Source: Desulfocapsa sp.
GTDB lineage: Bacteria; Desulfobacterota; Desulfobulbia; Desulfobulbales; Desulfocapsaceae
Assembly: GCA_016765495.1 (NCBI GenBank)
Contig: JAESPV010000027.1
Coordinates: 248,001 to 312,000 of the forward strand
Length of the DNA: 64,000 bases
Reading direction: 5' to 3'
In this document: positions 2,663 to 22,902 of the stretch, piece by piece
Position numbering within the stretch: the stretch's first letter is position 1
How the letters are laid out: each line of letters begins with the position of its first letter
Notes under the pieces: model-generated
Told to the model about the DNA's origin: nothing
Seen by the model: only the letters and a program-made list of their open reading frames with translations
The model's database searches: none
Made by a program: the position numbers and the translations under genes

Positions 2663-4399
2663 ATGTCTGAGAATCAATATGGCTTCAAGTATGATGAATA
2701 CGGAAACACGAGGGAAATCCTTGTCTATTCCAGTGGCGTAGCTGTTCATAGTATCAGCTATGTGAACAAGGGAACAGCCTTTAGCCTGGCTGAACGTAAA
2801 CGACTTGGGCTTGAAGCGGCTTTACCTCCTGCTGTCAGAAGCATGGAACATCAGGTTGAAAATTCTCTTATTAAAGTTAACTCCAAGGATAAGCCATTAG
2901 AAAAATTCATCTATTTACGATCACTTTTTGATCGTAATGTGGTGCTGGCCCATGCACTTATTAAGAGTGATATTGAAAATCTGATGGGGATAATTTATAC
3001 ACCCACCGTAGCCCTTGCTGTCCAACAGTATTCATCCATGTTTCGCCAGGCTAATGGTCTCCATTTCTACCCAGGTAATATTGACCAGGCTGAGAATATT
3101 CTACGCAGATATCTTCATCGCGATATCAGAGTGGCCGTGGTTACTGATAATCAGGGAATTTTGGGGATTGGAGATCAGGGTGCCGGAGGCATAGCTATTT
3201 GTCTTGGTAAGCTCATGCTTTACACGCAGGGGGCTGGTGTTGCCCCCTGGCATTGTCTGCCAGTTTCGCTTGATGTCGGAACCGATAATGAAGCCTTGCT
3301 CGCTGATAACGAATATTTAGGATGGCGTCACCATCGTTTAAAAGGTGATGAATATCTTGACCTTATAGGACGTTTTGCGCATGCATTCAGAAATGTGTTT
3401 CCTAATGCTTTGTGTCAGTGGGAAGATTTTTCCAAGCAGAATGCCTTTGCAATTCGCGATTCATACCTTCATGACTTGATATCATTTAATGATGATATTC
3501 AAGGCACAGGAGCTATAACCCTGGCCGGTATTTTGACAGCGATGCGTATCAAGCTTGAGAGGCTTGAGGATCAGGTTTTCCTGGTGCACGGGGCTGGGGC
3601 TGGTGGTATTGGAATAGCGGAACAAATAGGAATTGCACTTGTCGAGGCGGGACTCACTGAACAGGAAGCAAAGGATAGAATTTTCACCCTCGACTCGAGG
3701 GGTGTTGTCACCAGTGACCGTGATCTGGAGGAGTATAAGTATAAATTTGCAAAGGACAAAGAGCAGTTTACCTGGCTTAAGGATTCGTCAAAGATATCTC
3801 TGACAGAAGCCGTAAAGGAAGCAAGGGTTACTGTTTTAATCGGTACATCGGGGCAGGGAGGATGCTTTACCAGAGAAGTGATTGAGGCAGTGCTCGCAAA
3901 TACTGATAGACCTGTAATTATGCCACTTTCCAATCCTACCTCAATGACCGAGGCTCTACCAGAGGATATTTATAAATGGACGGATGGCAGGGCGCTGGTG
4001 GCAACCGGAAGTCCGTTTGAGCCGGTAACGCATAATGGCGTAACTCACAGCATAGGACAATGTAATAATGTGTTTGTCTTTCCGGGGGTCGGGCTTGGTG
4101 TACTCGGTTCCGGTGCAAGGGAAGTGTTGCCACAGTTTTTTACTGCTGCTGCTCACGCCGTATCCTCATGTGTATCTAAGGCTGAAATGGAGAATGGCTG
4201 CCTGGTGCCACCAGTGAATTCCCTCAAAGAGGTGAGCAGAAAAGTAGCTTTGGCAGTTGCAATGTCTGCAGTGGCAAGTGGTGTTAGCCGGCCATGCGTT
4301 TTTTCTACTTTCCAGCATGAAGGGGACGAGGCTCGTATGGCTGAGTTACTTCGGAAGATGCGCTGGGATCCGGAATATCTCCCGATTGTTGCGATGTAG
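2663..4399 (+). CDS. maeA: NAD(P)-dependent malic enzyme (oxaloacetate-decarboxylating)
   Basis: This enzyme would convert malate to pyruvate and CO2 with reduction of NAD(P). The protein of about 578 residues is the long malic-enzyme type. Visible motifs are YTPTVALAVQQYS in the substrate domain, the metal/substrate segment around NDDIQGTGAITLAG, and the dinucleotide fold VHGAGAGGIGIAEQIG. LSNPTSMTEALPEDIYKWTDG and QCNNVFVFPGVGLG are classic C-terminal malic-enzyme stretches. I chose the ATG at 2663 over the in-frame ATG at 2645 because GGGAG lies 7 nt before it and nothing similar precedes the upstream ATG. It is a single gene, divergent from the aminomutase-family gene. With the pyruvate carboxylase at 36-40 kb it would connect C3 and C4 pools. 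Cofactor preference cannot be read from the sequence. Confidence 0.93.
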   Translation: MSENQYGFKYDEYGNTREILVYSSGVAVHSISYVNKGTAFSLAERKRLGLEAALPPAVRSMEHQVENSLIKVNSKDKPLEKFIYLRSLFDRNVVLAHALIKSDIENLMGIIYTPTVALAVQQYSSMFRQANGLHFYPGNIDQAENILRRYLHRDIRVAVVTDNQGILGIGDQGAGGIAICLGKLMLYTQGAGVAPWHCLPVSLDVGTDNEALLADNEYLGWRHHRLKGDEYLDLIGRFAHAFRNVFPNALCQWEDFSKQNAFAIRDSYLHDLISFNDDIQGTGAITLAGILTAMRIKLERLEDQVFLVHGAGAGGIGIAEQIGIALVEAGLTEQEAKDRIFTLDSRGVVTSDRDLEEYKYKFAKDKEQFTWLKDSSKISLTEAVKEARVTVLIGTSGQGGCFTREVIEAVLANTDRPVIMPLSNPTSMTEALPEDIYKWTDGRALVATGSPFEPVTHNGVTHSIGQCNNVFVFPGVGLGVLGSGAREVLPQFFTAAAHAVSSCVSKAEMENGCLVPPVNSLKEVSRKVALAVAMSAVASGVSRPCVFSTFQHEGDEARMAELLRKMRWDPEYLPIVAM

Positions 4400-4411
4400 T
4401 CTGGTGCAGGG

Positions 4412-4448
4412 TCTGACTGCCGGGATTGGCATAATTTCGGCAGTCAGA
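4412..4448. terminator. Hairpin between convergent malic enzyme and hemerythrin genes
   Basis: TCTGACTGCCG (4412-4422) and CGGCAGTCAGA (4438-4448) form a perfect 11-bp stem with a 15-nt loop, starting 12 bases after the malic enzyme stop. No immediate T-run follows; one appears at about 4471. It is therefore a probable rather than certain terminator for the convergent pair. Confidence 0.5.
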
Positions 4449-4491
4449 TCGAGTGTAATCATTTGGCTTGTTTTTTTATGCTACGCCGCAT

Positions 4492-4902
4492 TTAGTTGTC
4501 GTTCATAGCCCTGGAAAGGCAGTCACTGTATTTCATATCTTCTTCGAGTATGTGGTTGAGTAGCCAATCTCTTAAAAAGAGATAGAAAGCAGAATTTATT
4601 CCAGCTGTGTTGTTTTCTATCTGCTCTTTGAAATCAGTTACTTCTTCCATAAGTTTTTTGTGTATGGCTTTGTGTTCATCAAGAAGATTGAAACCTGCCT
4701 TTTCCATGGCGGCCTCTTCATTTGCAAAATGTTTCCTGGTGTAATCCGCTAATTGGTCAACTTCATAACTCACTGATATCTTGATGTCACTTGCTTTCAC
4801 AATTTCGAACATTTCATTGATTAGTTTTACAATCACTTTATGTTCCTCATCAAATTGATCAATTCCAACTGAGTAAGAATCTCTCCATTTTATTAAGGCC
4901 AT
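4492..4902 (-). CDS. Bacteriohemerythrin
   Basis: The 136-residue single-domain protein matches the hemerythrin four-helix bundle. It has the expected di-iron ligands: a first His in DEEHKVIV, HFANEE, HKAIHKKL and a final HILEEDMKYSD segment. Bacteriohemerythrins bind O2 reversibly at a non-haem di-iron site. In anaerobes they are thought to scavenge, store or deliver oxygen; that role here is inferred. GGAG 6 nt before the ATG supports the start. There is no transmembrane or chemoreceptor domain, so it is a soluble cytoplasmic protein. It is monocistronic and convergent with malic enzyme. Confidence 0.93.
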   Translation of the reverse strand: MALIKWRDSYSVGIDQFDEEHKVIVKLINEMFEIVKASDIKISVSYEVDQLADYTRKHFANEEAAMEKAGFNLLDEHKAIHKKLMEEVTDFKEQIENNTAGINSAFYLFLRDWLLNHILEEDMKYSDCLSRAMNDN

Positions 4903-5406
4903 GGTATTCTCCGAAAAAAATAGTTTTCAAATTGCTTATCAGGTTTATGTTATTAATTAGTGTATGGCATGTATTTAAAAAAATACAGGTGAATAAAGCA
5001 TTAGAGTAGATTTATTTGCTGTAGGAACGTATTGGCTTGAGATTTTCAGAAGAGTTTTTTTAATTACATCGATTGAACTGCTATAATTACGAAATCAACC
5101 AACTTTTTGGGAGTATTTCTCAGGTATGACGACGTTTTTTAAAAACAAAAAGTCAGAAAAAGCCGATGATTATTAAAAAAAATTGATATGTTACTTGAAA
5201 AGAATTGAAAAACCAGTTAATTTGTCTCCTCTGTTGTGCGCGATAGTCTTGTTGACACAGAGTCTTTTGTTGAAAAAAATGCTAAGAATTATTCTGTGGT
5301 ATTTTCTCTTTGTTAAGGGGAGGGATAATTCAATTCTGGTCAACCCAACAATGTTACGACATGGTTTGCAGCAACATCAATCATCAGAATAATTGAGGAT
5401 ATATTA
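4903..5406. other. Intergenic region ahead of the Wood-Ljungdahl gene block
   Basis: Some 500 AT-rich bases lie between the divergent hemerythrin and folD genes and should hold both promoters. TTGACA at 5252-5257 is a perfect -35 box, but I see no good -10 at normal spacing, so it is not called as a promoter. GGAACGTA at about 5023 matches half of the dispersed palindrome seen elsewhere, but no partner arm was found. A 69-codon frame at 5183-5392 lacks features of a real protein. Confidence 0.4.
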
Positions 5407-6294
5407 ATGACGGCAAAGCTTATAAGCGGTATCGAGATAGCGAAAGAAATTCGTGAAGAATTAAACACAGAAGTTACAGAACTGAAAGAAAAACATGATA
5501 TCGTTCCCGGTCTTGTGACTATCCTTGTAGGTGAGGATCCAGCCTCTCAGTCATATGTAGCTGCTAAGAACAAGACTGCCCATGCACTTGGTATCCATTC
5601 GGAGCAGGTAACACTCGATCCTGAAACCAGTGAGGCAGATCTTCTGGAACTTGTGGATAAATACAATAACGACCCCAAAATCAACGGCATCCTTGTCCAG
5701 TTGCCTCTGCCGAAACATATTAATGAAGCGAATATCCTCTATGCCATTGATCCGAACAAAGATGTGGACGGATTCCATCCTGTCAATGTTGGAAAGATGG
5801 TGCTTGGCGAACAGTGTTTTCTGCCCTGTACTCCCCACGGAATCCTTGAGATGCTCACCAGAAGTGGTGTGGAGACCAGTGGTGCTGAGGTGGTAATAAT
5901 TGGCAGGTCCAACATTGTTGGTAAACCCATTGCTAATCTGATGCTTCAAAAACGTGATGGTGGTAATGCCACTATCACACTTTGTCATACCCGAACGAAA
6001 GACATGGCCGCTCATTGTAGACGTGCTGATATTATCATTGCAGCAGTTGGAGTACCTAAGATGGTAACCGCGGATATGGTAAAAGAAGGCGCTGCCATTA
6101 TTGATGTTGGTGTTAATCGCATTGGTAAGGCAAGCAACGGAAAAGCAATTCTTGCAGGTGATGTTGATTTTGATGCTGTGAAAGAAATAGCGTCTTGTAT
6201 TACCCCTGTGCCTGGTGGTGTCGGCCCCATGACCATTACCATGTTAATGAAAAACACAGTGCAGGCTGCCAAAATGGCGGCTGGCCTAGTCTAA
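5407..6294 (+). CDS. folD: Bifunctional methylene-THF dehydrogenase / methenyl-THF cyclohydrolase
   Basis: FolD interconverts formyl-, methenyl- and methylene-tetrahydrofolate, steps of the methyl branch of the Wood-Ljungdahl pathway. The 295-residue length is normal. Tyr50 and Lys54 in SYVAAKNKTA match the catalytic pair of the family. PLPKHI, DVDGFHPVNVGK, the NAD(P) segment VVIIGRSNIVGKP and the C-terminal PGGVGPMTITMLM are all present. GAGGA 7 nt before the ATG supports the start. It opens a co-directional block that continues into cooS 66 bp downstream, which suggests a dedicated C1 role in addition to biosynthesis. No formyl-THF synthetase gene is in the window. Confidence 0.97.
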   Translation: MTAKLISGIEIAKEIREELNTEVTELKEKHDIVPGLVTILVGEDPASQSYVAAKNKTAHALGIHSEQVTLDPETSEADLLELVDKYNNDPKINGILVQLPLPKHINEANILYAIDPNKDVDGFHPVNVGKMVLGEQCFLPCTPHGILEMLTRSGVETSGAEVVIIGRSNIVGKPIANLMLQKRDGGNATITLCHTRTKDMAAHCRRADIIIAAVGVPKMVTADMVKEGAAIIDVGVNRIGKASNGKAILAGDVDFDAVKEIASCITPVPGGVGPMTITMLMKNTVQAAKMAAGLV

Positions 6295-6360
6295 ATATAA
6301 GCGTATATTGAGTGTTTAAGGCAGAGTTGTAAATCGCCTATCATTGTTTTGGAGGAAAAT

Positions 6361-8358
6361 ATGAGCAACAGTAAAAATAGATGTAACTCTTGTAACGACA
6401 TCACCACTGCTTCAACCATAGATTTGCTTAATCAGGATCTGGCAAAACAGGTGCGAACGGCCTATGATCGTATTGAGGATCGAGGTGTATCGGCCTGTCT
6501 GTTTGGGTCTGGCGGAACCTGCTGTCGTATTTGTAACATGGGCCCCTGTCAGGTGATTGATGGAGTTGAGCAAATGATTGGTATCTGTGGTGCAACTGCA
6601 GCTACTGTTGTAGCCAGGAACTTTGCCCGTATTGTTGCTGCCGGAACTGCAGCCCATACCGATCATGCCCGTGAGATGGTCATGGGATTTATCGAAACTG
6701 CCAAGGGGAATAATCAACATGAAATCAAGGATGTTAAAAAACTTCATGCCATGGCCGAAATTTTTGACATAGAGATAGAGGGCAGAGATAAGAATGAAAT
6801 TGCGCTTGAGCTTGGCGAAAAGGCTCTCGCTGAATTTGGTCAACAGAAGGGTACCCTTACAATGCTCAAACGTGCTTCTGCAAAGCAGCAGGCCATTTGG
6901 AAAGAAAAGGGCGTAGAACCCCGAGGTATTGATCGCGAGGTTGTAGAAACCATGCATCGTACACATATGGGTGTTGATCAGGAATATCATAACATCATGA
7001 AGCAGGCAGCACGTTGTTCACTCGCTGATGGCTGGGGTGCTTCCATGCTTTCCACAGAACTTACCGATATCATGTTTGGTACTCCGGTTCCAAAGCGTGC
7101 ATTGATTGATCTTGGTGTGTTAAAGGCAGATCAGGTGAATGTAACTGTTCATGGACATGAGCCACTTCTCGCTGAATCACTCTGTATAGCTGCTGAAGAT
7201 CCTGAAATTCTTGCTCTTGTAAAGAAAGTTGGCGCCAAAGGAATTAACCTTGCCGGTGTTTGTTGTACAGGTAATGAGATTCTCATGCGTCGCGGAATTC
7301 CAGTTGCCGGATCTTTCATCAATCAGGAGATGGTTTTGGCCACTGGTGCCGTTGAGGCCATGGTTGTGGATGTACAGTGTACCATGCAGTCATTGGCTCA
7401 GGTAGTCAAGGAAAAACATACAGACATTATTACCACCAACTATCGGGCAAAAATGCCTGATGCTATTCATATGCAGTTTGAGGAAAGCGATTCTATCGGA
7501 TCAGCTAAAAGCATCCTCGCCCATGCGATTGGCAACTTCAAAAAACGTGGCGAATTCTATATCCCAAAAGACAAAACGTTTGATATGGTTGTCGGATTCA
7601 GTCATGAATCAATCAATTATATGCTTGGTGGAAGTTTTCGTGAAAGTTACCGACCATTAAATGATAATATCATCAATGGTCGCATTAAGGGAGTTGGTGC
7701 TCTCGTAGGATGTGAACATTTCAAATACAGCGATGATCACCACTTTAAGATCGCTGTAGAGCTTCTTAAAAATAATGTCCTTATTCTCGCAACCGGTTGT
7801 GCTGCCCAGGCACTTGGTCGTCGCGGACTAATGACACCTGAAGCAGCTGCCGAGTATTGTGGTGAAAGTCTTGCTGAAGTATGTGAGGCCGTTGGTATGC
7901 CGCCGGTTTTGCATGTTGGGTCATGCGTAGATAACAGTAGATTGCTCATTGCACTTACTGAGATGGTGAAACAGGGTGGTCTTGGAGACGATATATCCGA
8001 ACTTCCTGCATGCGGTACGGCACCTCTCTGGATGAGTGAAAAAGCGGTTGCCATTGGACAGTACTTTGTGACATCCGGTGCCCATGTTGTTTTCCAGAAT
8101 CTTCCAGTAACCGGATCCAAAGAGATGACTGATTTTATGCTGGATGGAATGAAGGAGGAGTATGGCGCATGCTGGGGGTGTGAAGAAGACCCTGTTAAGC
8201 TGGCACAAAAAATGATCAAAGCCATTGATGGGAAACGCGATGAGCTTGGTATTAACAAGAAACAGGATCGTGTACTTTTTGATATGGAAATGCGTCGGGA
8301 CCTTGATGCTGGTGCATCGGGTCAAAGTCTCTCTGGTATGGGTTGCGGTAACAAATAG
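6361..8358 (+). CDS. cooS: Anaerobic carbon monoxide dehydrogenase catalytic subunit (CODH of CODH/ACS)
   Basis: This Ni-Fe-S enzyme interconverts CO and CO2 and would feed CO to acetyl-CoA synthase. The N-terminus shows Cys46, Cys54 (D cluster) and Cys55, Cys58, Cys63, Cys76 (B cluster), in CLFGSGGTCCRICNMGPC and GICGATA. C-cluster regions are recognisable: VHGHEPLLAE, GVCCTGNEIL, VDVQCTMQS, LVGCEHFK, ATGCAAQALG and HVGSCVDNSR. The 665-residue length fits AcsA/CooS. The start is the ATG at 6361, preceded by GGAGG five bases upstream; a TTG at 6349 is in frame but overlaps that ribosome site. Acetyl-CoA synthase genes follow, so this is the CODH/ACS form and not a standalone respiratory CODH. 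No cooC/acsF maturation gene is nearby. Confidence 0.97.
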   Translation: MSNSKNRCNSCNDITTASTIDLLNQDLAKQVRTAYDRIEDRGVSACLFGSGGTCCRICNMGPCQVIDGVEQMIGICGATAATVVARNFARIVAAGTAAHTDHAREMVMGFIETAKGNNQHEIKDVKKLHAMAEIFDIEIEGRDKNEIALELGEKALAEFGQQKGTLTMLKRASAKQQAIWKEKGVEPRGIDREVVETMHRTHMGVDQEYHNIMKQAARCSLADGWGASMLSTELTDIMFGTPVPKRALIDLGVLKADQVNVTVHGHEPLLAESLCIAAEDPEILALVKKVGAKGINLAGVCCTGNEILMRRGIPVAGSFINQEMVLATGAVEAMVVDVQCTMQSLAQVVKEKHTDIITTNYRAKMPDAIHMQFEESDSIGSAKSILAHAIGNFKKRGEFYIPKDKTFDMVVGFSHESINYMLGGSFRESYRPLNDNIINGRIKGVGALVGCEHFKYSDDHHFKIAVELLKNNVLILATGCAAQALGRRGLMTPEAAAEYCGESLAEVCEAVGMPPVLHVGSCVDNSRLLIALTEMVKQGGLGDDISELPACGTAPLWMSEKAVAIGQYFVTSGAHVVFQNLPVTGSKEMTDFMLDGMKEEYGACWGCEEDPVKLAQKMIKAIDGKRDELGINKKQDRVLFDMEMRRDLDAGASGQSLSGMGCGNK

Positions 8359-8396
8359 TAGTTTTTTTTTATTCAACCATCATTCTTGAATACGTG

Positions 8397-8422
8397 TAGC
8401 AGCCTGTTGGTTCAGGCTGCTA
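8397..8422 (+). promoter_or_regulatory. Intercistronic hairpin between cooS and metF::acsD
   Basis: TAGCAGCCTG (8397-8406) and CAGGCTGCTA (8413-8422) make a perfect 10-bp stem with a TTGGTT loop. TTTAAAAG follows, not a long T-run. It may be a weak terminator, or an mRNA processing or stability element that sets relative expression of cooS and the genes after it. Confidence 0.5.
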
Positions 8423-8458
8423 TTTAAAAGATAGGTTTTGGCAGAAGGAGTCTAGCAG

Positions 8459-11119
8459 ATGAAGTCGGGTAGTAATCTAGAAACACTATTAAAGAAAGGG
8501 ACATTCGTTGTAACAGGCGAACTTGGACCTCCCAAAAATGGAAACCCCGAAGTAGTACGCAAAAAAGCGAATCTGCTGAAAGGTAATGTGGACGCAGCCA
8601 ATATTACTGACTGTCAGACTGCGATTGTTCGTATGTCGTCCATTGCAGCTGGACTTATTGCAAAAGAAGAAGGGGTGGAACCAGTTATTCAGATGACATG
8701 TCGTGATCGTAACAGGATTGGCATGCAGTCTGATATACTTGGTGCTTCGGCACTTGGCCTCAAAAACCTTCTCTGTTTGACGGGTGATCACCAGAAGTTT
8801 GGTAATCACCCCGGATCAAAGGGCGTCTTTGATATGGATTCGATCCAGATGCTTGGAATGATGAAAGGGATGCGCGATGATCAAGTATTTCAATGCGGAG
8901 AAGAAATAAAAAGTGATGTACCTAAACTGTTTTTAGGTGCTGCCGCAAACCCCTTTGCCTATCCTTTTGAATATCGGGCCGTTCGCCTTGGAAAAAAGGT
9001 AACAGCCGGTGCCGACTTTGTTCAAACCCAAATCATATATAATGTGGAAAGATTTCGCGAATTCATGAAAATGGTTCGTGATCTTGGCCTCCATGAGAAA
9101 TGTTACATATTGGCTGGTGTGACCCCTCCTAAATCACTGGGAATGGCTCGTTACATGAAGAAATTTGTTCCTGGAATGGATGTTACCGACGAGGTAATCC
9201 AGAGAATGAAGGACGCCAAAGATAAGCAGGATGAAGGTATTCAGATCTGTGCAGATATTATCAATGAAGTAAAGGAAATTGAAGGTGTTGCTGGCATTCA
9301 TTGTATGGCTATCGAATGGGAAAGTGCTGTTCCTGAGATATTAAACAGGGCTGGTCTTCTTCCACGTCCAAGTATTAGTGAACCTGCTGAAGTTACCATA
9401 AAAGAGGAAATCAAAGAACAGATCGTTGTTCAATCTGTTGATACTAATGCTCTGCTTGAGAAAGCAAAAGCCGAAGCATCAAAGATTATAGCTGCTGCAG
9501 AGGCCAAGGCTGATGCAATAAAGAAAAACGCTGGCACTGCTGAAGTTGCAGATACCGTTGCCACTAAAAGTATAACCACTAACGCGCCACAGAGTGCGAA
9601 TGATTCAGGAGAGCATGAAATGAATGAAAAAGAACGGATCATGGCACTCGATTCTGTGAATCTTGGTCTGGCCGCACTGAAAAAAGCATATGGATTAACC
9701 GATGATCAGTTTGAGGCACTGTCCAGTTTTGCTGGTGCACATGCAATTCTTAAAAAAGAACCTGAAATTGATGGTGCAGCTCCTGTGGCTTCCGCTCCTG
9801 TAGCCGCCGCACCAGTTTCACCTGCTGCACCTGTGGCTGATCCTTCTGCTGAAAAAGCCAAAGCAGAAGAAGAGGCAAAAGCAAAAGCCGAGGAAGATGC
9901 CAAGGCTGCAAGTGATGCTAAAGCTAAAGCAGATGCCGAAGCTACAGAAAAGGCTGAAGCGGCTGCTAAAGCACTAGCCGATGCTAAAGCCGTAGAAGCG
10001 GCCAAAGCTAAGTCTGAAGCGGAGGCAAAAGCAAAAGTTGAGGCAGAGGAAAAAGCAAAAGCAGAAGCTAAAGCAAAAGCAGAAGCAGAAGCTACAGAAA
10101 AGGCTGCTACCCCTGTCACTGATTTTGGTGTTGCAGAACTTGCCAAAGAAACCATAGCACTTGCAGATCGTTCTACAAAGATTGCCCCTACATCTTACGA
10201 AACCAAATATTCAGGGACTATTCGTCCTGTGACAATGGGTAATGATGGAAATGAGAGACTCATTGGTGGTTCCACATCGATGCCTTTCCAGCTTTTTGAA
10301 GGCGAGCATCCGAACAAACCACTTATTGCAATGGAAGTATCCGATGTAAAACCAGAAGAATGGCCAGAGACCTTAAGTCAACATTTTAGTGATGTTTACG
10401 ATAATCCGGTTGCCTGGGCTGAGAAATGTGTCAAAGTATATGGCGCAGAAGCAATAGCCATAACTCTTGGTTCAACAGACCCAAATGGAATGAATCGTTC
10501 TGCAGCAGATGCTGCAAAGACCGCTGCTGCTGTTATTGCTGCAGTCGATGTTCCTGTTATTGTCTGGGGGTGTGGTAATGCTGATAAAGATACTGAAACC
10601 TTACGAGATATTACATCTGTTATTGGTGATAAAAAAGTTTGCCTCTCCCCCCTTGAAGACTCCAACTACAGAACCATCGGCGCAACTGCTATGGCATTTA
10701 AACATCCTGTAGTTGCGGCATCACCTATTGATGTTAACCTTGCTAAACAGCTTAATATCCTTCTTGAAAATCTTGGTGTTTCCCTTGATACAGTTCTTAT
10801 GGATCCCTCTGTTGGAGCTCTTGGATACGGTATAGAATATACCTATTCTGTAATGGAGCGTATCAGGATTGCAGCTCTTACCCAGCAAGATGAAAAATTA
10901 CAGGTACCCATAATCTGTAATCTTGGTTGTGAAGTCTGGAAAGCAAAAGAGACAAAATTGCCGAGTGATGATATGATTGGAGATCAGGAAACCCGCGGAA
11001 TTATGATGGAAGCTCTGACTGCAAGCTGTATGCTTCTGGCTGGTGGTGAGGTGATGATTATGCGGCACCCTAAGGCTATAGCATTGACAAAAGCAATGAT
11101 TGCCGGTCTCACGGACTGA
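8459..11119 (+). CDS. metF-acsD: Fusion of methylene-THF reductase (MetF) and corrinoid Fe-S protein small subunit (AcsD)
   Basis: One uninterrupted frame of 886 residues. Residues 1 to about 300 are MetF: TFVVTGELGPPKNG, NITDCQTAIVRMS, LLCLTGDH, GADFVQTQIIYN and AGVTPPKS fit the flavin TIM barrel that makes methyl-THF. Residues 330-440 contain short helical and Ala/Pro stretches, and about 440-550 is an almost pure Ala/Lys/Glu segment like the TolA linker. From about 570 to the end is the AcsD/CdhD TIM barrel, with GGSTSMPFQLFEGEHPNKP, VWGCGNADKD, LMDPSVGALGYGIEYTYSVMERIR and GGEVMIMRHPKAI. AcsD normally forms a heterodimer with AcsC to carry the cobalamin. The fusion would place the methyl-THF source beside its corrinoid acceptor. 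An internal ribosome site at 9607-9622 could also yield a separate AcsD. The product domains are certain; the fusion as a stable protein is not proven. Confidence 0.93.
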   Translation: MKSGSNLETLLKKGTFVVTGELGPPKNGNPEVVRKKANLLKGNVDAANITDCQTAIVRMSSIAAGLIAKEEGVEPVIQMTCRDRNRIGMQSDILGASALGLKNLLCLTGDHQKFGNHPGSKGVFDMDSIQMLGMMKGMRDDQVFQCGEEIKSDVPKLFLGAAANPFAYPFEYRAVRLGKKVTAGADFVQTQIIYNVERFREFMKMVRDLGLHEKCYILAGVTPPKSLGMARYMKKFVPGMDVTDEVIQRMKDAKDKQDEGIQICADIINEVKEIEGVAGIHCMAIEWESAVPEILNRAGLLPRPSISEPAEVTIKEEIKEQIVVQSVDTNALLEKAKAEASKIIAAAEAKADAIKKNAGTAEVADTVATKSITTNAPQSANDSGEHEMNEKERIMALDSVNLGLAALKKAYGLTDDQFEALSSFAGAHAILKKEPEIDGAAPVASAPVAAAPVSPAAPVADPSAEKAKAEEEAKAKAEEDAKAASDAKAKADAEATEKAEAAAKALADAKAVEAAKAKSEAEAKAKVEAEEKAKAEAKAKAEAEATEKAATPVTDFGVAELAKETIALADRSTKIAPTSYETKYSGTIRPVTMGNDGNERLIGGSTSMPFQLFEGEHPNKPLIAMEVSDVKPEEWPETLSQHFSDVYDNPVAWAEKCVKVYGAEAIAITLGSTDPNGMNRSAADAAKTAAAVIAAVDVPVIVWGCGNADKDTETLRDITSVIGDKKVCLSPLEDSNYRTIGATAMAFKHPVVAASPIDVNLAKQLNILLENLGVSLDTVLMDPSVGALGYGIEYTYSVMERIRIAALTQQDEKLQVPIICNLGCEVWKAKETKLPSDDMIGDQETRGIMMEALTASCMLLAGGEVMIMRHPKAIALTKAMIAGLTD
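9607..9622 (+). promoter_or_regulatory. Internal Shine-Dalgarno and in-frame ATG within metF::acsD
   Basis: AGGAG (9607-9611) lies eight bases before an in-frame ATG at 9620, which is codon 388 of the fusion. Translation from here would give a 499-residue AcsD form beginning MNEKERIMALDSV. It falls exactly between the MetF barrel and the AcsD part, where a separate gene would be expected to begin. Confidence 0.55.
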
Positions 11120-11186
11120 TTTTTTTCTTAGAATGAATTGAAACAAACAAATCAGCTTTAATACCGATTTTACAGGAGTTTAAGAT

Positions 11187-13391
11187 ATGTCCAAAATAAT
11201 TTGTTCAGCAGCCATCCGCGGTGCCCAAAAAATTATCGATATGGCCGAAAACAGCTATGAAGATGCTGTTAAAAAGTATGGAAAAGATAAAGAAGTATCT
11301 TTTCCGAATACGGCATATTACCTACCTATTATTTACAGTATGCTAGGAGCTAAAGTTGAGAAACTTGGCGATATGGAAGATATTTTTAAAGAATGTCGAG
11401 GCCTCATGCCTCCTGTCGTTACAGGAGATATCTGGCTTCCCTATCTTGCTCCTGCACTTGATGCTGGTATGGCTACCTTCTTTGCCGAGGAGATGTATGA
11501 GGCCATCAGGTATTTGAATGAGCCTAATCTTTATACCGCGACAGAAGAGCCGACAGCAGAAAACTTCTGGTTAGGTGCTGCAGATGATGTCATTTTCCGT
11601 AAACGTGGTGTTGAATTTGTTGATGGTTCTGCACCCGGTTTTGCTGCGATTTTAGGAACTCCAAAAGATCCTGAAATGGCGGCTAAAATCGCACTTGAAC
11701 TTCAAGAAAAGAATCTCTATATTTTCATGCATGAGCAGACCGAAGGTATAAGCCTTCCAGATCAGCTTATAAAGCAAAAACAACAGGTTGGCTGGGGGAC
11801 TCGCCTCGTTCCTTTCGGTCGTGAGTATACCACAGCAGTTTTTGCCATCGGATTCGCTTGTCGTGTTGCTCTCGCCTTTGGTGGGGTTAAACCTGGCGAT
11901 TACGCTGCTAATCTTAAATATAATAAAGATCGTACCTTTGCATTTGTTATGGCCTTTGGTGAGGTTAGTGATGAATGGTATGCAAATGCTGCAGGTGCCA
12001 TAAACTGGGGCTTCCCAACCATTTCAGATTGGGATATTCCTGAAATTCTCATCACTGGTGTATGTACTTATGAGCATGTTGTATCAAATGTTCCACATGA
12101 TGAAATTGTGCAGAAAGCCATTGAGGTTCGCGGACTTAAAATAAATGTAACAAAAATTGATATACCAATGTCCTTTGGTCCTGCATTTGAGGGTGAGCGT
12201 GTTCGTAAAGACGACCTCTTTATGGAATGTGGTGGAGGTCGTACTCCTGGCGTTGAAGTTCTTATCTCTAAAGAAATGGATGAGATTGAAGATGGTCTTG
12301 TTACCCTTGAAGGAGTCGATATCTCTGACTTAGAGCGGGGACAGAACGTGCCCCTCGGAATTCTTGTAGAAGTTGCTGGACGTGAAATGCAGTCTGACTT
12401 CGAACCAATTCTTGAGCGTCAGTTTCATCATTTAATGAACTATATTCAAGGTATCATGCATATGGGGCAGCGAAATATTATGTGGCTGCGTATTGGTACT
12501 GCCGCTGTAGAGAAGGGCTTTTCCTTCAAACATCTTGGAACAGTTCTTCATGGTAAACTGCATCAGGAATTTGGTGCCATCGTTGATAAAATTCAAGTAA
12601 AATTGTTCACAACTGAGGAAGGCGTGCAGATGGTTTCTAATCTTGCCAATTCCGTATATACTGAGCGTGATCTTCGTCTGGGAGCAATGACCGATGAAAC
12701 GGAGGATGTATTCTATTCCTGTACACTATGCCAGTCTTTTGCTCCAAGTCATGTTTGTGTAATTACACCAGAGCGAATCGGCATGTGTGGAGCTTATAAC
12801 TGGCTTGACGGTAAGGCTTCCTTCAATATTAATCCCACAGGCCCCAATCAGCCTATTGAAAAGGGTGAGTGTACCGACGAGGATAATGGTTATTATACTG
12901 GGATTACTGAGTTTGTAAATCAGGCATCCCGTGGTGCGGTTCCCGAAGTTAGTTGTTATTCTCTTATGAATAATCCCATGACTGCCTGTGGTTGCTTTGA
13001 AGCCATTGCAGCCATGCTTCCAACATGTAACGGTATCATGGTCGTTAATCGGGATTATCTTGGTATGACACCATCTGGAATGAAATTCACATCCCTTGCC
13101 GGTATGGCGGGTGGTGGTATGCAGACTCCAGGTTTCATGGGAGTCAGTAAGCATTATATGACTTCAAAAAAACTGTTTAAAGCTGAAGGTGGTCTCAAAC
13201 GAGTGGTCTGGCTTCCTAAGATGTTGAAAGAAGAACTTGCAGAAAAACTTAAAGAGGTGTGTGCTGACATTGGCATGCCTGAACTCTTTGACATGATTGC
13301 AACGGAAGAACAGGGAACCACTGAGGAAGAGATTTACGAATTCCTTAAAGAAAAAGGACATCCTGCACTTGAAATGGAAACAGCTGTATAA
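11187..13391 (+). CDS. acsB: CO-methylating acetyl-CoA synthase (ACS)
   Basis: ACS joins CO, a corrinoid-bound methyl group and CoA into acetyl-CoA, or runs in reverse. The 734-residue protein has the A-cluster ligands with canonical spacing: Cys512, Cys515, Cys524, Cys534 (CTLCQSFAPSHVC then GMCG), and the CGC motif in MTACGCFEA for the distal nickel. A run of identical family stretches (GVEFVDGSAPGFAAILG, MHMGQRNIMWLR, SLAGMAGGGMQTPGFMG) supports full activity. CAGGAG before the ATG supports the start. It sits between the genes for the two corrinoid protein subunits. No membrane or export signal is present, so the protein is cytoplasmic. Confidence 0.98.
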   Translation: MSKIICSAAIRGAQKIIDMAENSYEDAVKKYGKDKEVSFPNTAYYLPIIYSMLGAKVEKLGDMEDIFKECRGLMPPVVTGDIWLPYLAPALDAGMATFFAEEMYEAIRYLNEPNLYTATEEPTAENFWLGAADDVIFRKRGVEFVDGSAPGFAAILGTPKDPEMAAKIALELQEKNLYIFMHEQTEGISLPDQLIKQKQQVGWGTRLVPFGREYTTAVFAIGFACRVALAFGGVKPGDYAANLKYNKDRTFAFVMAFGEVSDEWYANAAGAINWGFPTISDWDIPEILITGVCTYEHVVSNVPHDEIVQKAIEVRGLKINVTKIDIPMSFGPAFEGERVRKDDLFMECGGGRTPGVEVLISKEMDEIEDGLVTLEGVDISDLERGQNVPLGILVEVAGREMQSDFEPILERQFHHLMNYIQGIMHMGQRNIMWLRIGTAAVEKGFSFKHLGTVLHGKLHQEFGAIVDKIQVKLFTTEEGVQMVSNLANSVYTERDLRLGAMTDETEDVFYSCTLCQSFAPSHVCVITPERIGMCGAYNWLDGKASFNINPTGPNQPIEKGECTDEDNGYYTGITEFVNQASRGAVPEVSCYSLMNNPMTACGCFEAIAAMLPTCNGIMVVNRDYLGMTPSGMKFTSLAGMAGGGMQTPGFMGVSKHYMTSKKLFKAEGGLKRVVWLPKMLKEELAEKLKEVCADIGMPELFDMIATEEQGTTEEEIYEFLKEKGHPALEMETAV

Positions 13392-13417
13392 TGTTTTCTG
13401 CCAAATTTAATTTGACA

Positions 13418-13456
13418 GGGAACGTACACGAAATAACCTGAAAATAGTACGTTCCC
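13418..13456. repeat. Dispersed palindromic element, copy A
   Basis: GGGAACGTAC (13418-13427) and GTACGTTCCC (13447-13456) form a perfect 10-bp stem around a 19-nt loop, in the 148-bp gap between acsB and acsC. The 18 bases GGAACGTACACGAAATAA from 13419 recur exactly in copy B upstream of trpE. In this position it may attenuate or stabilise the transcript. Confidence 0.7.
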
Positions 13457-13539
13457 TTTCCTGACAATAAAGTTCTAAATATTACAATTAATACAATTAA
13501 TACAAAATTCCAATTGTATAGATAACTGGAGGAATCACC

Positions 13540-14892
13540 ATGGCCTTAACCGGTATTCAAATTCTTAAGATGCTGCCCAAGAAAAATTGTGGCGAATGTA
13601 GCATCCCTACCTGCCTTGCCTTTGCTATGAAAGTAGCGGCGGGCCAGGTTGAAATTGATGAATGTCCTTATGTTTCAGATGAGGCCAAGGCCACCATTAG
13701 TGAGGCGTCCGCCCCTCCTATCCGTACTATTAAAATTGGAGCTGGTGATGATAGTTTTACGGTTGGCGGTGAGACTTGTATGTATCGTCACGATAAGCGT
13801 TTCGAAAATCAGACTGGTATAGCAGTTCTGGTGACCACCGAGATGAGTGACGCTGATGCGGATGGACGTATTGAACGTTTTAACAAGTTTGAATATGAGC
13901 GTGTAGGCGTAATTATGCGCGCTGATCTTATTGCTGTTAAAGATTCAAAGAATGATGAAGCTTCTTTTGTTGCACTTACTCAAAAAGTACTTGATGGTTC
14001 TGCCCGTGCTGCCATTATTCTGATGAGTGATTCTGCCGCTAATCTTGAAGCAGCTGCAAAAGTATGTGGTGAGAGGCTCCCTATCCTGTATGGAGCAACT
14101 CTTGAAAATGCCGATGAGATGGCAAAACTTGGCGAAAACACCAAGGCTCCAATTGGTGTTAAAGGGAGCAATCTTGACAATTGTGTTGAGATTACCGAGA
14201 AGCTTTCCGCAGCAGGCTTGAAAGATATGGTCATCGATACCGGTGCCCGTACTCTTCGTGCTGCATTTGAGGACAATGTCGTTGCAAGACGTTCTGCTGT
14301 TACTGCCAAGTTTAAGGCTCTTGGTTTTCCAACTATTACCTTTCCGTGCGAGATAACCGACGATCCAATGCTTGAGGCCATGGTTGCCTCAGTGCTCATT
14401 GCAAAGTATGCAGGTATCATTGTGCTTTCTGATCTTCAAGGTGATTTGCTTTTCCCGCTGTTTCTGGAAAGGATGAACATCTTTACCGATCCTCAGCGTC
14501 CAATGGTTGTGACCGAGGACATTTATCCGCTCACCGGACCTGAGGAAAATTCACCTGTTGTAATTACGTGTAACTTCTCACTTACCTACTTCATTGTATC
14601 TGGTGAAATAGAAGGTTCCAAAGTGCCAACCTGGTTACTTATTAAAGATACTGAAGGTCTTTCTGTTCTTACTGCATGGGCAGCTGGCAAATTTGGTGCT
14701 GATCTCATAGCACAGTTTGTGAAGAAAAATGGGATTGAAGATAAGGTCAAACATCGTGACCTTATTATTCCAGGATATCTTGCTTCTCTTAAAGGTGAGC
14801 TTGAAGAAGAACTTCCTGACTGGAATATCATTATAGGACCTCGTGAAGCCGGTCATCTTCCAGTTTTCTTAAAAGAATGGAAACCTTCCTAG
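13540..14892 (+). CDS. acsC: Corrinoid iron-sulfur protein large subunit
   Basis: AcsC is the large (gamma) subunit of the corrinoid/Fe-S protein that carries the methyl group to acetyl-CoA synthase. The 450-residue protein begins with the characteristic N-terminal 4Fe-4S module, KKNCGECSIPTCLAFAMKVA and a fourth Cys in DECPYVS. A TIM barrel and a C-terminal cobalamin-binding domain follow (GADLIAQFVKKNGIEDKVKHRDLIIPGYLA, with GPREAGHLPVFLKEW at the end). ACTGGAGG precedes the ATG. Its partner subunit is encoded in the metF::acsD fusion two genes upstream, and fdhA starts 18 bp after its stop. Confidence 0.96.
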   Translation: MALTGIQILKMLPKKNCGECSIPTCLAFAMKVAAGQVEIDECPYVSDEAKATISEASAPPIRTIKIGAGDDSFTVGGETCMYRHDKRFENQTGIAVLVTTEMSDADADGRIERFNKFEYERVGVIMRADLIAVKDSKNDEASFVALTQKVLDGSARAAIILMSDSAANLEAAAKVCGERLPILYGATLENADEMAKLGENTKAPIGVKGSNLDNCVEITEKLSAAGLKDMVIDTGARTLRAAFEDNVVARRSAVTAKFKALGFPTITFPCEITDDPMLEAMVASVLIAKYAGIIVLSDLQGDLLFPLFLERMNIFTDPQRPMVVTEDIYPLTGPEENSPVVITCNFSLTYFIVSGEIEGSKVPTWLLIKDTEGLSVLTAWAAGKFGADLIAQFVKKNGIEDKVKHRDLIIPGYLASLKGELEEELPDWNIIIGPREAGHLPVFLKEWKPS

Positions 14893-14910
14893 TTGCAACA
14901 AAAAACTATT

Positions 14911-17900
14911 ATGAGCACTGTAAAACTGAATATAAATGGTAATGAGCTTGTTGCTGAAGAAGGTCTAACTATCCTGGAGATAGCTAAGAGATCTGACATC
15001 AATATCCCTACACTCTGTTATGTAGAAGGCAAAGCGGCAGATAAACCATGCGATATCTGTATTGTTGAAGTGGATGGACGGGAAGGTCTCCTCCGTTCCT
15101 GTGAAACACTTGCCATTAATGGGATGTCTATTCAGACTGAATCTAAGGCTGTTGTTGCACATAGACAGGAAAAACTGGCTGCTCTTTCCGAGACCCATTT
15201 TGGTGATTGTAAAGCACCGTGTAACCTTACCTGTCCAGGTCAGATAAATGTTCAGGGGTATATTGCTCATGTTGCTCGTGGTGAGTACGAAGAGGCACTG
15301 CGGGTTGTTATGGATCGTAATCCTATTCCCTTTTCCGTCGGTCGTGTTTGTCCCAGGTTTTGTGAAAGCCGTTGCCGTAGAATTTTGATTGATGAGTCAG
15401 TATCCATTAATCACTTGAAACGCTTTGTAGCAGACTGGTGTATGAGTCAGGAAATTGATCTCAAAATTCCAAAGGACGAACCAACAGGTAAAAGAATCGC
15501 AGTAATAGGTGGGGGGCCTGCTGGTCTCACAGCTGCATGGTTTCTTGCAAGGAAGGGACACGACGTCACCATCTTTGAGGCGGCACCTAAACTAGGTGGA
15601 GCGCTACGCTATGGCTTTCCTGATTATAAAGTACCTGATGCAATTGTAGATTACGAAGTAAATACTATTCTTCATATGGGGATTAATATCCAATTGTCCC
15701 AAAAATGGGGTAAGGATTTTACTCTCCAGGATCTTAAAGACAAGGGATTTGATGCTACTTTTATTGGCATAGGGGCAACCAGAGATGTTCCTCTCGATGT
15801 TCCATGTTCCGACAAGGAGAATGTGTATACTGCGGTTGATTTTCTTCGCATGATTAATGAAGGAAAAAAGTTAAACCTTGGCCGGAGAGCTGCTGTTATT
15901 GGTGGAAACGATATCGCAATGGAAGTGGCCAGAGTACTTCTTCGTGAAGGTGTTGAGCAGGTTACAATCGTTTATCCCCGTACTCGTCATGAGATGTCTG
16001 CAAATCAACGTAATGTGAAAGAGGCTGAAAAAGAAGGTGTACAGTTTCTTCAGATGACTTCTCCAGCCGGACTTTGTGCTGCACCCGATGAGGACAACAG
16101 GCTTAAACTTGATCTTGTCAGGATGAAATGGGGAGAACCTGATAAAAAAGGTAAACGAAATATTCTTCCAATTCCGGGGGCAACAAATTTTCTCTGTATT
16201 GATACTGTAATTTCATCCCTTGGACAAATGGCAACAGATGGTGTTATGGCCGGTGGAGAACTTGAAGAACAGTTAAAAATGAAACCTGGTGGAATGTTTT
16301 TTGCCAACCCCAGGAGTTCTGAGACCAGTATAAAAGGAGTTTTTGCCGGCGGTGATGCTGTCACCGGAAGTAAAACCGTAATTCAGGCAGTTGCCTCTGC
16401 CAGGCGGGCGGCAAACAATATTAATGCCTATGTCATGGATTGTGAAAAGGATCCTGCTGACAATCGTTTCAACTTTAGTCGCGGGAAATCTTTTGATAAT
16501 GTTTCTCCTAAGAATTTCAATAACATTGGTATCACTCTTCGTGAGAAAATGCCTGAGCGTCCATCTGAAGTTTCTATCCAGGATTACAGTGAAGTTAAAC
16601 TTGGGTTCACCGAGAAGATGGCCAAACGGGAGGCAGAACGCTGTCTTAAATGCGGTTGCACGGCATTTGAACGTTGTGATTTGAAACGTCTTGATATTGA
16701 TCTTAAAGTCAATATTAATAAAACTGGAATGGGTAAAGAGCCTATTTATCCGGTTGATACCAGTCATCGTGCTATTATTGTTGATCCCAATAAATGCATT
16801 TATTGTGGGCGCTGTGAGAGATCATGTGAATATGATGCTCTCGAAATAAGAGCAGAATCCATTGATGAGAAAGGCCGTCCTGTTGGATTGGTAATAGATT
16901 TTAAGGATCATTGTGTATCATGTGGAAAATGCGTCGAATACTGTTCTACAGGAGCACTGAATAAAAATAATCGAATAGTTCCAATCCAATCAGAAGAGGT
17001 TCGTGAAATACCCACAACCTGTCCTTATTGCGGCACTGGTTGCCAAATGATACTTAAGGTCAAAGGTCACACCTTAATGGAGATATCAGCAGATCCGGAA
17101 GTTGGGCCTAATTATGGGGATCTCTGTGTGAAAGGTAGGTTTGGGCATACCTTTATTCAGCACCCGGATCGATTGAAAACACCCATGATTCGACGTCAAA
17201 AAGGAATGCCTCTGGAACCTGTTACCTGGGATGAAGCGCTGGATTTTATGACTCAATCCTTTTCTGCAATTCTTAGCGAGAAGGGACCCGATGCCTTAGC
17301 TGGTTTATCATCAGCGAGATGCACAACTGAAGAAAACTATGCTTTCCAAAAATTCTTTAGAGCAGGAATAGGGACAAATAACATTGATCACTGTGCCAGA
17401 TACTGACACAGTCCAACGGTGACCGGTCTGGTCACAGTATTAGGTTCTGGTGCAATGACCAATACCATTAATGGTATACTTGATAGTGATGTTATGCTGG
17501 TAATAGGCTCAAATACCACGGAAACGCATCCAATTATTGCCCTTCGTATGTTAGCCGCTGTCAAAAAAGGATCGAAACTTATTGTTGCTGATCCTCGTCG
17601 CATTAAACTCTGTGATTCAGCTGCACAGTGGATGCAGCAACGACCGGGAACCGATGGTGCTTTAATTAATTCACTGTGTCATGTCATTATTCGCGATGGC
17701 CTTGAAGATAAAGAGTATATTGCAAAACGTGCAGAAAATTTTGATGCCTTTAAGGAGTCTATTTCTGAATGTACTCCACAGTGGGCGGAACAGATTACTA
17801 ATGTAGCAGCAAGTTTGATTGAAGAAGTCGCCCATACCTTTGCCAAGGGGAAATCTGCTGGTATTTACTATACCATGGGGATTACCCAGCATACTTCCGG

Positions 17901-19077
17901 TACTGATAATGTCTACGCTCTTGCAAATCTTGCAGTCATAACCGGTAATCTCGGTAAAGATGGTGCCGGGCTGAATCCTCTGCGTGGTCAAAATAATGTT
18001 CAGGGGGCAAGCGACATGGGATGTCTTCCACACTTTTTCCCAGGTTACCAAAAATGTGACAATGAGGAAGCAAAGGCTAAATTTGCAAAAATTTGGGATT
18101 CTCCCATAACTGATAAACCTGGACTTATGGCCACTGAAACCGGAGATGCCATAATGGAAGGAAAAATTGGTGGTCTATGGATTATGGGAGAGAACCCGGT
18201 CATAAGTGACCCCAACTCCTCTCATGCAACAAAAGCATTCAAAAAACTGGATTGTCTTGTCGTTCAGGATATCTTTTTAACTGAAACGGCAGAAATTGCA
18301 GATGTAGTACTCCCTGCCGCCTCTTTTGCAGAAAAGGAGGGAACATTTGCCAATACTGAGCGAAAAGTTCAACGTGTACGTCGGGCTGTACCTCCTCCAG
18401 GAGATGCAAGGGACGATCTCTCCATCATTAATATGGTGAGTAACAGAATGTTTGGAAATCGAAACAACGAACGCTGTGATACAATTGATCCGGTTTTTCA
18501 TACTGTGCCGCCCTTTGCATCAGATGTATTTGATGAAATCACAAAATGCTGGGTCGCCATGGCTGGAATGAGTTATGATAGGCTTGAAAACGAGTCTCTT
18601 GCATGGCCTTGCCCTGAAAAAGATCATCCGGGGACTCCGGTTCTCCATAAGGATGCATTTCCCAGAGGAAAAGCCTGGTTATCCGCAATTACCTGGAGTG
18701 GCCCGGCAGAAAAACCAGATAATGAATATCCTCTGGTTTTAACAACTGGCAGGGTGCTGTATCAGTACCATACCGGTACCATGACAAGGCGATCTGAAAT
18801 TTTGGAGAATTCCGCACCCTCGCCATATGTTGAAATGAATCCCTCCGATGCAGAAGCATTGAATCTTGCAGATGATGAAATGGTACGTGCTTCTTCTCGT
18901 CGTGGTACGATAGAGCTTGCTGTACGGATTACTGACAGAGTTTACAAAGGTTTGGTATTTATTCCTTTCCATTACAAGGAAGCATCGGCCAATCTGCTTA
19001 CTAACGATGCTCTTGATCCTCACTGTAAAATCCCGGAAGCAAAGGTTTGTGCAATTAAAATAGAAAAGCTTCAGTAA
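14911..19077 (+). CDS. fdhA: Multidomain selenocysteine formate dehydrogenase (2Fe-2S, GltD-like, ferredoxin, FdhA)
   Basis: The gene reads through an in-frame UGA at 17404-17406 (residue 832), in the active-site context DHCARY-U-HSPTVTGL. This is the Sec position of formate dehydrogenases. Full length is about 1388 residues. Domains in order: a 2Fe-2S ferredoxin (1-80); a glutamate-synthase small-subunit-like flavoprotein (about 95-540, with CKAPCNLTCPGQ, AVIGGGPAGLTAAW and a second fold at AAVIGGNDIAMEVAR); two 4Fe-4S motifs (CIYCGRCERSC, CVSCGKCVEYC); then the 4Fe-4S plus molybdopterin domain from TTCPYCGTGC onward. It would interconvert formate and CO2, and the GltD-like part suggests NAD(P)H exchange by flavin. 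HdrA and MvhD genes follow, so an Hdr-linked, possibly bifurcating complex is inferred. The start is uncertain: no clear Shine-Dalgarno, and TTG at 14893 is an alternative. Confidence 0.93.
17419..17435 (+). promoter_or_regulatory. Bacterial SECIS hairpin for fdhA
   Basis: Directly after the Sec UGA, GTGACC (17419-17424) pairs with GGTCAC (17430-17435) around a GGTCT loop. The GGUCU apical loop is that of the E. coli fdhF SECIS recognised by SelB. The loop starts 19 nt after the UGA, within the usual range. Confidence 0.85.
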
Positions 19078-19166
19078 GCGGACTGTGTATATATTTTCCG
19101 TAGCTTCCATACTACGTTGAGTAAATAGAATTAAAAATTTAAAATAATATTAGCTCGGAGATTCTG

Positions 19167-22100: not shown

Positions 22101-22232
22101 AAGGCCTGTGGCATCTGTGCTTCCCGCTGTCCAACTTTTGCAATCTCAATGGGTGGTTTTACCAATGAGCAATTGATCTCACAGATTGAGGCATTTGGAA
22201 ACAAAGTAGCTGACGAAAAAGTTGAAGCTTAA
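19167..22232 (+). CDS. hdrA: Selenocysteine-containing long HdrA-type electron-transfer flavoprotein
   Basis: Reading through UGA at 19353-19355 (residue 63) gives [17 protein letters not shown], where most HdrA proteins have CSICILAPKMVE. Total length is 1021 residues, longer than a simple HdrA (about 650). Residues 1-450 hold a first FAD fold ([14 protein letters not shown]) with ferredoxin motifs [12 protein letters not shown] and CQICVPVC, and a Cys-rich [14 protein letters not shown] second HdrA module from about 460 has [38 protein letters not shown], a second FAD fold ([20 protein letters not shown] at about 600), and C-terminal [12 protein letters not shown] and [12 protein letters not shown]. 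HdrA carries the bifurcating flavin of heterodisulfide reductase-like complexes. With mvhD next and fdhA before, it probably passes formate-derived electrons between ferredoxin and disulfide or NAD(P) acceptors. The downstream HdrBC partner is not in the window. Confidence 0.93.
19377..19392 (+). promoter_or_regulatory. Bacterial SECIS-like hairpin for hdrA
   Basis: GAGGCC (19377-19382) pairs with GGTCTC (19387-19392), with one G-U pair, around a GGTC loop. The loop begins 27 nt after the UGA. Loop sequence and distance match the fdhA and mvhD hairpins. Confidence 0.7.
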
Positions 22233-22277
22233 CGATTAATAGATTAAGTAAAAAGAGCAATATACGGAGAATAAAAC

Positions 22278-22880: not shown

Positions 22881-22902
22881 TTACCTATAACGTAACTATT
22901 CA
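22874..22902 (+). terminator. Hairpin at the end of mvhD
   Basis: TGAATAGTTAC (22874-22884, spanning the stop codon) and GTAACTATTCA (22892-22902) form an 11-bp perfect stem with a 7-nt loop. No T-run follows. It probably protects the 3' end or assists the stronger terminator about 80 bp downstream. Confidence 0.5.

Follow-up and report, generated by a model that had tools for sequence, protein, structure and literature searches.

The 64,000-nucleotide stretch analysed here (the window), from contig JAESPV010000027.1 of a Desulfocapsa sp. assembly, carries a gene cluster of the Wood-Ljungdahl pathway in which one open-reading frame (ORF) joins the methylene-tetrahydrofolate (methylene-THF) reductase MetF to AcsD, the small subunit of the corrinoid iron-sulphur protein. 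All coordinates are window positions and residues are numbered on the 886-residue product (Table 1). As read from its sequence, the gene is a MetF-AcsD fusion in one open frame: a sequence-only reading of this DNA had described a complete MetF running in frame into a complete AcsD over 886 codons, which the ORF and the Pfam and NCBIfam matches confirm, and it was right to call the two consecutive actors of the pathway. The match to the Pfam MTHFR family PF02219 is full-length (residues 8-299, profile positions 3-287 of 287, 125 bits against a cut-off of 24), and across 28 aligned relatives the MetF domain holds many invariant residues, in long runs that include TGELGPPK, LTGDH and QTQ. Aligned with 1v93/3apt, LTGDH falls opposite 'l gd' and QTQ opposite 'tq', with an invariant Glu21 just beyond the aligned span; we take Glu28, Asp120 and Gln183 of the E. 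coli enzyme to be catalytic, and presume a catalytic role for the invariant residues of the fused MetF likewise. At the other end the Pfam family CdhD covers residues 591-865 (146.9 bits, cut-off 24.8) and NCBIfam AcsD models span residues 580-885, one giving a full-length AcsD match above its cut-off (NF003376, 369.7 against 280) and two scoring under theirs (WLP_AcsD 301.5 vs. 430; NF003377 477.9 vs. 527), whilst the solved AcsD of 2h9a chain B is matched with an E-value of 1.1e-80. The linker that joins the two parts totals ~270 residues and includes a small conserved domain (here named mid), which is probably helical, judged by eye, and for which a Pfam scan returned no family and just a weak TPR-like match (E 0.059). 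It is followed by a low-complexity arm (A 44%, E 22% and K 22% over residues 464-550), and the spacing from mid to AcsD varies between 117 and 173 residues in the 51 distinct fused proteins described below.

Table 1. Features of the MetF-AcsD fusion gene and of its neighbours, in window positions.
Feature	Position	Strand	Basis
MetF-AcsD ORF	8459..11119	+	ATG start, 886 codons, zero internal stops
MetF (methylene-THF reductase) domain, residues 1-305	8459..9373	+	Pfam PF02219 and invariant residues
Variable linker, residues 306-387; conserved only in its final few codons, next to the internal ATG	9374..9619	+	51-row alignment
Internal Shine-Dalgarno AGGAG, 8 nt before ATG388; contains the Gly384 codon GGA (9608-9610)	9607..9611	+	Codon conservation
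Internal ATG, residue 388, putative start of a stand-alone AcsD (499 aa, 52.4 kDa)	9620..9622	+	Met in 51/51
Small mid domain, residues 388-435 (48 residues), conserved	9620..9763	+	Alignment; without Pfam family
Linker, residues 436-577, Ala/Pro-rich, then Ala/Lys/Glu-rich	9764..10189	+	Composition
AcsD (corrinoid Fe-S protein small subunit), about residues 578-886, and stop	10190..11119	+	Pfam, NCBIfam, 2h9a match
Predicted second product: mid, Ala/Lys/Glu-rich linker and AcsD	9620..11119	+	Inferred; compare split L200, L201
folD	5407..6294	+	FolD models; best 25 listed, each under its own cut-off
acsA/cooS (CO dehydrogenase)	6349..8358	+	Pfam/NCBIfam
acsB (acetyl-CoA synthase)	11187..13391	+	Pfam/NCBIfam
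acsC (corrinoid Fe-S protein large subunit)	13540..14892	+	Pfam/NCBIfam

The fusion is common in the order Desulfobulbales. A whole-protein search of 56 genomes, the window's own included, gave some match in 52, many of them to one half only, and a scan of named genomes yielded 58 loci, with labels including Desulfobulbaceae, Desulfocapsa, Desulfobulbus, Desulfurivibrio, Ca. Electronema aureum and Ca. Desulfatifera, and others merely Proteobacteria or Deltaproteobacteria. The full fused frame is present in 42 of these 58 loci, is cut by a contig end in 12 and is interrupted in four (L047, L065, L095, L096). Scanning both sets of loci for ORFs, with partial, cut and interrupted frames left out, gave 67 full-length fused ORFs, which represent 51 distinct proteins, the window's own and one from Desulfurivibrio sp. 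(L094) among them. A search with mid found a match in 141 of the order's 257 genomes, and 115 of these 141 hold an open frame of at least 836 residues, including assemblies of one or two contigs (G008, G038, G117, G124, G129); among the 26 with shorter frames, an in-frame stop occurs in at least G017, G052 and G079. The host assembly has 108 contigs, is 99.96% complete and is 7.28% contaminated, and with interrupted frames in some relatives one might suspect that two genes were joined by a missed stop or frameshift. Because the frame is conserved across relatives it is neither a chance occurrence nor an assembly join, and in view of the 51 distinct full-length proteins, the long frames in 115 of 141 genomes, the 42 full loci, the one-contig genomes and a published mention (see below), we reject an assembly or annotation artefact for the clade and give it virtually no weight. 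In one Desulfocapsa genome (L012/L047) an in-frame TAG lies in the MetF part after residue ~120, and the mid and AcsD parts stay open; the TAG could be a sequencing error, and with the internal start described next AcsD would still be made.

The linker also contains a second, strictly conserved candidate start at codon 388. Each of the 51 distinct genes encodes Met388, with (Ala/Ser/Leu)-Gly-Glu-(His/Asp)-X before it and Asn-Glu-(Lys/Arg)-Glu-Arg after it. The codon of Gly384, which forms part of the Shine-Dalgarno (SD) sequence in front of Met388, is GGA in every one of these 51 genes (9.3 expected from the codon usage of the individual genes) and likewise in all 68 distinct 120-nt DNA contexts. 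By comparison, the best of the other 43 conserved glycine columns gets to 34 of 51 genes. The Gly384 codon changes 0 times on a tree built from the 51 proteins, the mean over the 41 invariant glycine columns (Gly384 included) being 18 and the next lowest 12; since none of the remaining invariant glycines has fewer than 12 codon changes, protein constraint does not explain the invariant GGA. Gly384 is in fact the lowest in codon change of 192 conserved four- or six-fold degenerate columns, followed by Ser5 (6 changes), Ala744 (7), Arg393 (8) and Ala396 (9), of which Ser5 sits just after the first start and Arg393 and Ala396 just after the second. Met388 is also the sole one of 21 conserved methionine columns with an SD energy of -6 or below in every row; the first start has this in 41 of 51. 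An in-frame start and its SD sequence are therefore conserved here beyond what the protein requires. The sequence-only reading had held that proteomics finding only separate MetF and AcsD, and no bridging peptide, would refute the fusion. It had overlooked the conserved mid domain and the internal SD and ATG, because of which separate AcsD is no refutation: AcsD beside the fusion is the predicted outcome.

Outside the order, the fusion extends to other families of the phylum Desulfobacterota. Of 395 sampled genomes of the phylum, 255 have AcsD and 26 have mid, with all 26 mid matches in frames of 868-1174 residues; a mid domain on a separate AcsD gene occurred in no case in this sample. Sixteen of the 26 mid-bearing genomes lie outside Desulfobulbales; in each of these 16 a single open frame (1004-1174 residues) matches MetF, mid and AcsD, as checked on the retrieved stretches, which are partly cut. 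Their linker is longer and, in those inspected, TPR-like by eye; of the two that were scanned, L147 has TPR repeats above the Pfam cut-offs and L150 weak ones below them. A further 14 fetched genes of families f42, f78 and f105 are fused and gave no mid match, one of them (L188, f105) with TPR repeats too. The fusion is thus present in at least 40 of the 255 AcsD-bearing genomes, a lower bound as the AcsD search gave best matches only, and one in which three members of the order (G192, G199, G201) are counted from their frame lengths. When 78 AcsD domains were placed on a tree (quick method, SH-aLRT support only, hand-picked rows with 17 of 51 for the order), 49 fused or split rows fell on one side of a branch with support 100 and 29 unfused rows on the other; the fused or unfused label needs two changes. 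The simplest reading of this tree is one fusion and one later split, that of L200 and L201, which are nested inside f42. Same-family genomes that do not have the fusion (L100-L106, seven fetched) carry an AcsD of the unfused clade in frames of 525-551 residues, which suggests that AcsD was replaced or exchanged in them; we had considered them as a pre-fusion state, and dropped this because all seven belong to the other AcsD clade.

The split relatives show where a stand-alone AcsD can begin. In both L200 and L201, metF ends at a stop codon and is followed by an acsD that begins MQNEKEL behind an SD sequence (-8.4 and -9.3). Four of the seven fused genes of their subclade (L192, L194, L196, L197) have an in-frame ATG with an SD energy of -9.4 to -10.7 where the corresponding helix-like stretch begins, and these four are the only ones at or below -9 among 22 linker ATGs in the 14 fused genes of f42, f78 and f105. 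Given the split pair and these four genes, a stand-alone AcsD beginning at this place appears viable, and a start there is retained in some fused relatives.

We consider it likely that the gene is a real, old MetF-AcsD fusion read from two starts, with products of 94 and 52 kDa. The first start would give the 94-kDa MetF-linker-AcsD chain, and ATG388, with its own conserved SD sequence, a 52-kDa AcsD that carries mid and the charged linker. AcsC would be the partner of both products. In the long chain, a flexible Ala/Lys/Glu-rich arm would keep MetF at the CO dehydrogenase/acetyl-CoA synthase complex (CODH/ACS), whilst the short chain would supply extra corrinoid protein, so that not every copy bears a reductase, the internal start setting the ratio of MetF-bearing to MetF-free AcsD. 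The MetF domain would make methyl-THF, with electrons supplied via MetV and HdrC-like, MvhD-like and HdrA-like partners, and methyl transfer from methyl-THF to the corrinoid would still fall to AcsE, encoded elsewhere. Two in-frame starts are known from other bacterial genes, for example cheA, whose long and short products have the C-terminal part in common; in the present gene the second initiation is predicted.

Several observations weigh against this reading. The SD energy of Met388 ranks first among in-frame ATGs (counted from codon 30 to 30 before the end) in just 18 of 51 genes, 10.7% of the other in-frame ATGs reach the range of Met388, and protein constraint apparently gives Met868 an SD energy of -6 or below in 50 of 51 rows; on the strength of this ranking and of Met868 we rejected SD energy as sufficient proof of an internal start. 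The region around Met388 is just mildly unstructured (on average 24% of codons are at least as open). In the 16 fused genes outside the order, an SD-preceded start lies within six residues of the start of the mid match in five (ATG in L147 and L158, GTG in L152 and L154, and a weak TTG in L153); in L156 and L157 an ATG precedes the match by 12-16 residues, and in L155 and L156 a GTG lies inside the domain. Within the split pair's subclade L198, L199 and L222 do not have the ATG seen in the other four, nor do the other seven of the 14 genes, GTG and TTG codons with strong SD sequences occur at other spots in these linkers as well, and a comparison of the small domains of Desulfobulbales and f42 gave no support for homology (hhalign probability 3%, E 0.014). 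Finally, two fused genomes (G039, G041) have no AcsE match at 1e-30. A plain fusion, translated as a single 94-kDa chain that tethers MetF and AcsD 1:1 and leaves the internal SD and ATG unused, would account for a frame that is open throughout and conserved as a fusion, for SD-like sequences elsewhere in the ORF such as that of Met868, and for a clear internal start being missing from most of the fused genes examined outside the order; however, it leaves unexplained a GGA kept in 51 of 51 genes beyond protein constraint, an invariant ATG at SD spacing and split relatives that begin AcsD at the equivalent place, and we think it unlikely. GGA is also the core of CsrA sites, and the element lies between two domains expected to fold independently, so that it might be a CsrA/RsmA-type site, or an SD-like pause that gives MetF time to fold ahead of AcsD synthesis. 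This we hold to be improbable, as an invariant ATG goes with the element at a spacing suited to initiation, the low codon change extends to Arg393 and Ala396 just as it does after the first start, and no Rfam family reached its gathering score over positions 4300-23000.

Candidate partners for the fused MetF and AcsD are encoded in the same genome. An AcsE-like gene is found on contig C35 beside a RACo/AcsV-type corrinoid activator, with NCBIfam scores under the curated cut-offs (181 vs. 259 and 160 vs. 370), and is matched at 1e-30 in 31 of 36 relatives, at 46-48% identity in three non-fused ones and at just 30% in G017; none was found in the acs cluster, or at 45% identity or more within the 58 named loci. 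We therefore rejected the idea that the fusion replaces a missing AcsE, and with an AcsE-like gene elsewhere in the same genome the tether seems not to replace the methyltransferase here. A small HSDR_N_2-domain protein (L108, 3898-4467) adjoins the AcsE-like and RACo-type genes. The metV gene (L107, 11797-12465, PF12225) stands in a row with HdrC-like and MvhD-like genes on contig C21 (L107, 10727-12465), a stretch that holds no metF, and an HdrA-like gene is found downstream within the window. This MetV occurs in 31 of the 36 relatives, though not within the 58 named loci at 45% identity or more, and in the non-fused genomes G020 and G022 metV homologues directly precede metF homologues, which supports MetV as the partner of the fused MetF. 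An alternative is that the fused MetF has lost its reductase activity and acts just as an assembly or docking domain for CODH/ACS. Its distance from solved MTHFRs (best phmmer E 6e-13) and the three further MTHFR-family genes of the window's genome would fit such a role; against it stand the long invariant stretches across 28 relatives, presumably catalytic, this MetV in 31 of 36 relatives and the non-fused homologues adjoining metV, and we judge it very improbable. On two small contigs of that genome (C71 and C40; L003/L041 and L004/L040 in G000) lie two 512-residue MTHFR genes with a C-terminal, MetV-type DUF5981, possibly strain duplicates given the contamination noted above.

The MvhD subunit belongs to the MetFV-HdrABC complex of Moorella. 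In the window's genome, too, MetV, MvhD-like and HdrC-like genes stand together, with the HdrA-like gene in the window, but the single Moorella-type cluster of metF, metV, hdrABC and mvhD is not found here: metF is fused to acsD, and metV lies with mvhD-like and hdrC-like genes elsewhere. Schemes of the Wood-Ljungdahl pathway usually show separate enzymes for the methyl branch and the carbonyl branch. Here the tether probably holds MetF at CODH/ACS and may, as the sequence-only reading proposed, keep the methyl donor close to its acceptor. With a conserved covalent link between reductase and corrinoid protein in Desulfobulbales (Desulfocapsa and a cable bacterium, Ca. Electronema, included) and in further families of the phylum, channelling and stoichiometry are open to direct test; the internal start adds the sharp prediction of a 52-kDa AcsD beside the 94-kDa fusion. 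A wider proposal, which we put forward tentatively and hold to be possible rather than likely, is that one gene with two conserved starts yields tethered MetF-AcsD and free AcsD, such that the reductase, with MetV/Hdr, would be built into a CODH/ACS particle of mixed stoichiometry, an old metabolon spread across this clade of Desulfobacterota with varied linkers (Ala/Lys/Glu-rich, TPR-containing or a short arm).

The known systems nearest to this one differ in how AcsD is placed. CODH/ACS with separate AcsC and AcsD (PDB 2h9a, 2ycl, 4djd and others) has a like AcsD domain, and acsA, acsB and acsC are clustered here as well; its small subunit, however, is a chain of its own of about 310 residues, whereas the one encoded here makes up the C-terminal portion of a fused chain, in a cluster that has no acsE-like gene. 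In other families of the phylum, L202 and L203 (frames of 1123 and 1150 residues) join AcsD at its C-terminal side to CODH by a low-complexity linker, a second kind of AcsD tether, and in L100 and L101 AcsD has a long Ala/Lys/Glu-rich C-terminal tail that ends in a short helix-like segment. All four resemble the fusion in that a long low-complexity linker connects AcsD with either a neighbour from the pathway or a small terminal segment, and are unlike it in that the linker is on the C-terminal side, the partner, where there is one, is CODH, and the AcsD is of the other clade.

The fusion is real and widespread, and is already in print by name. The sequence-only reading knew of no described protein of this layout, yet the available part of Melton et al. 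2016 (PMC5016858) gives an 'mthfr/acsD' fusion in its abbreviation list for Desulfurivibrio alkaliphilus AHT2, names DaAHT2_0827 a methylene-THF reductase in its text, and has a pathway scheme that follows strain MLMS-1 (its reference 23, Pierce et al. 2008). AHT2 thus has the same fusion by name and the same pathway genes under neighbouring locus tags; the available part of the paper is silent on a domain in the linker, on internal initiation, on further clades and on how the fusion might work. This was the sole mention of the fusion found in a literature search that was thin on subscription papers. Neither the internal start nor the breadth of the fusion is mentioned in the available parts of PMC12827605, PMC7857596, PMC10553843 (which names the Moorella MetFV-HdrABC), PMC4911364, PMC8780430, PMC3739170, PMC7117923 or PMC6344411; likewise, in what was accessible of each, no word beginning 'fus' occurs in PMC12827605, a survey of the Wood-Ljungdahl pathway in Desulfobacterota, and 'fusion' and 'fused' are absent from the D. 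sulfexigens, T. dismutans and Dissulfurimicrobium genome papers. As far as these searches go, what is new is how widely the fusion occurs, that its AcsD forms one clade, the types of linker, and the second start with its strict conservation. The fusion may also mislead annotation: for Ca. Desulfobulbus rimicarensis, the accessible text of PMC7117923 lists metF (two), acsE, acsABC and a corrinoid iron-sulphur protein gene, with no metV and nowhere 'acsD', yet a contig of this organism (L062) carries the MetF-AcsD fusion.

The cluster around the fusion runs in the order folD, acsA, fusion, acsB, acsC, formate dehydrogenase, hdrA-like, with the genes for the ACS and AcsC partners following the fusion. 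The same neighbours recur among the 58 named loci, many of which are cut by contig or flank ends: acsA in 51, acsB in 51, folD in 48 and acsC in 43. In a plasmid collection 32 records matched the fusion, none covering 80% of it, and the 20 matches listed align to the MetF part. The formate dehydrogenase alpha gene (14893-19077) has an N-terminal NAD(P)-oxidoreductase-like part and a TGA interruption at 17404-17406 in the context ARY-TGA-HSP, followed by a hairpin that is no better than in shuffled sequences; this TGA is probably a selenocysteine codon. A promoter scan gave 22 sites against 17.5 +/- 4.7 in shuffles, and a terminator scan 13 sites against 6.8 +/- 2.6. Inside the acs cluster, a terminator-like hairpin (11104-11118), with a T-run to 11126, lies over the stop codon of the fusion.

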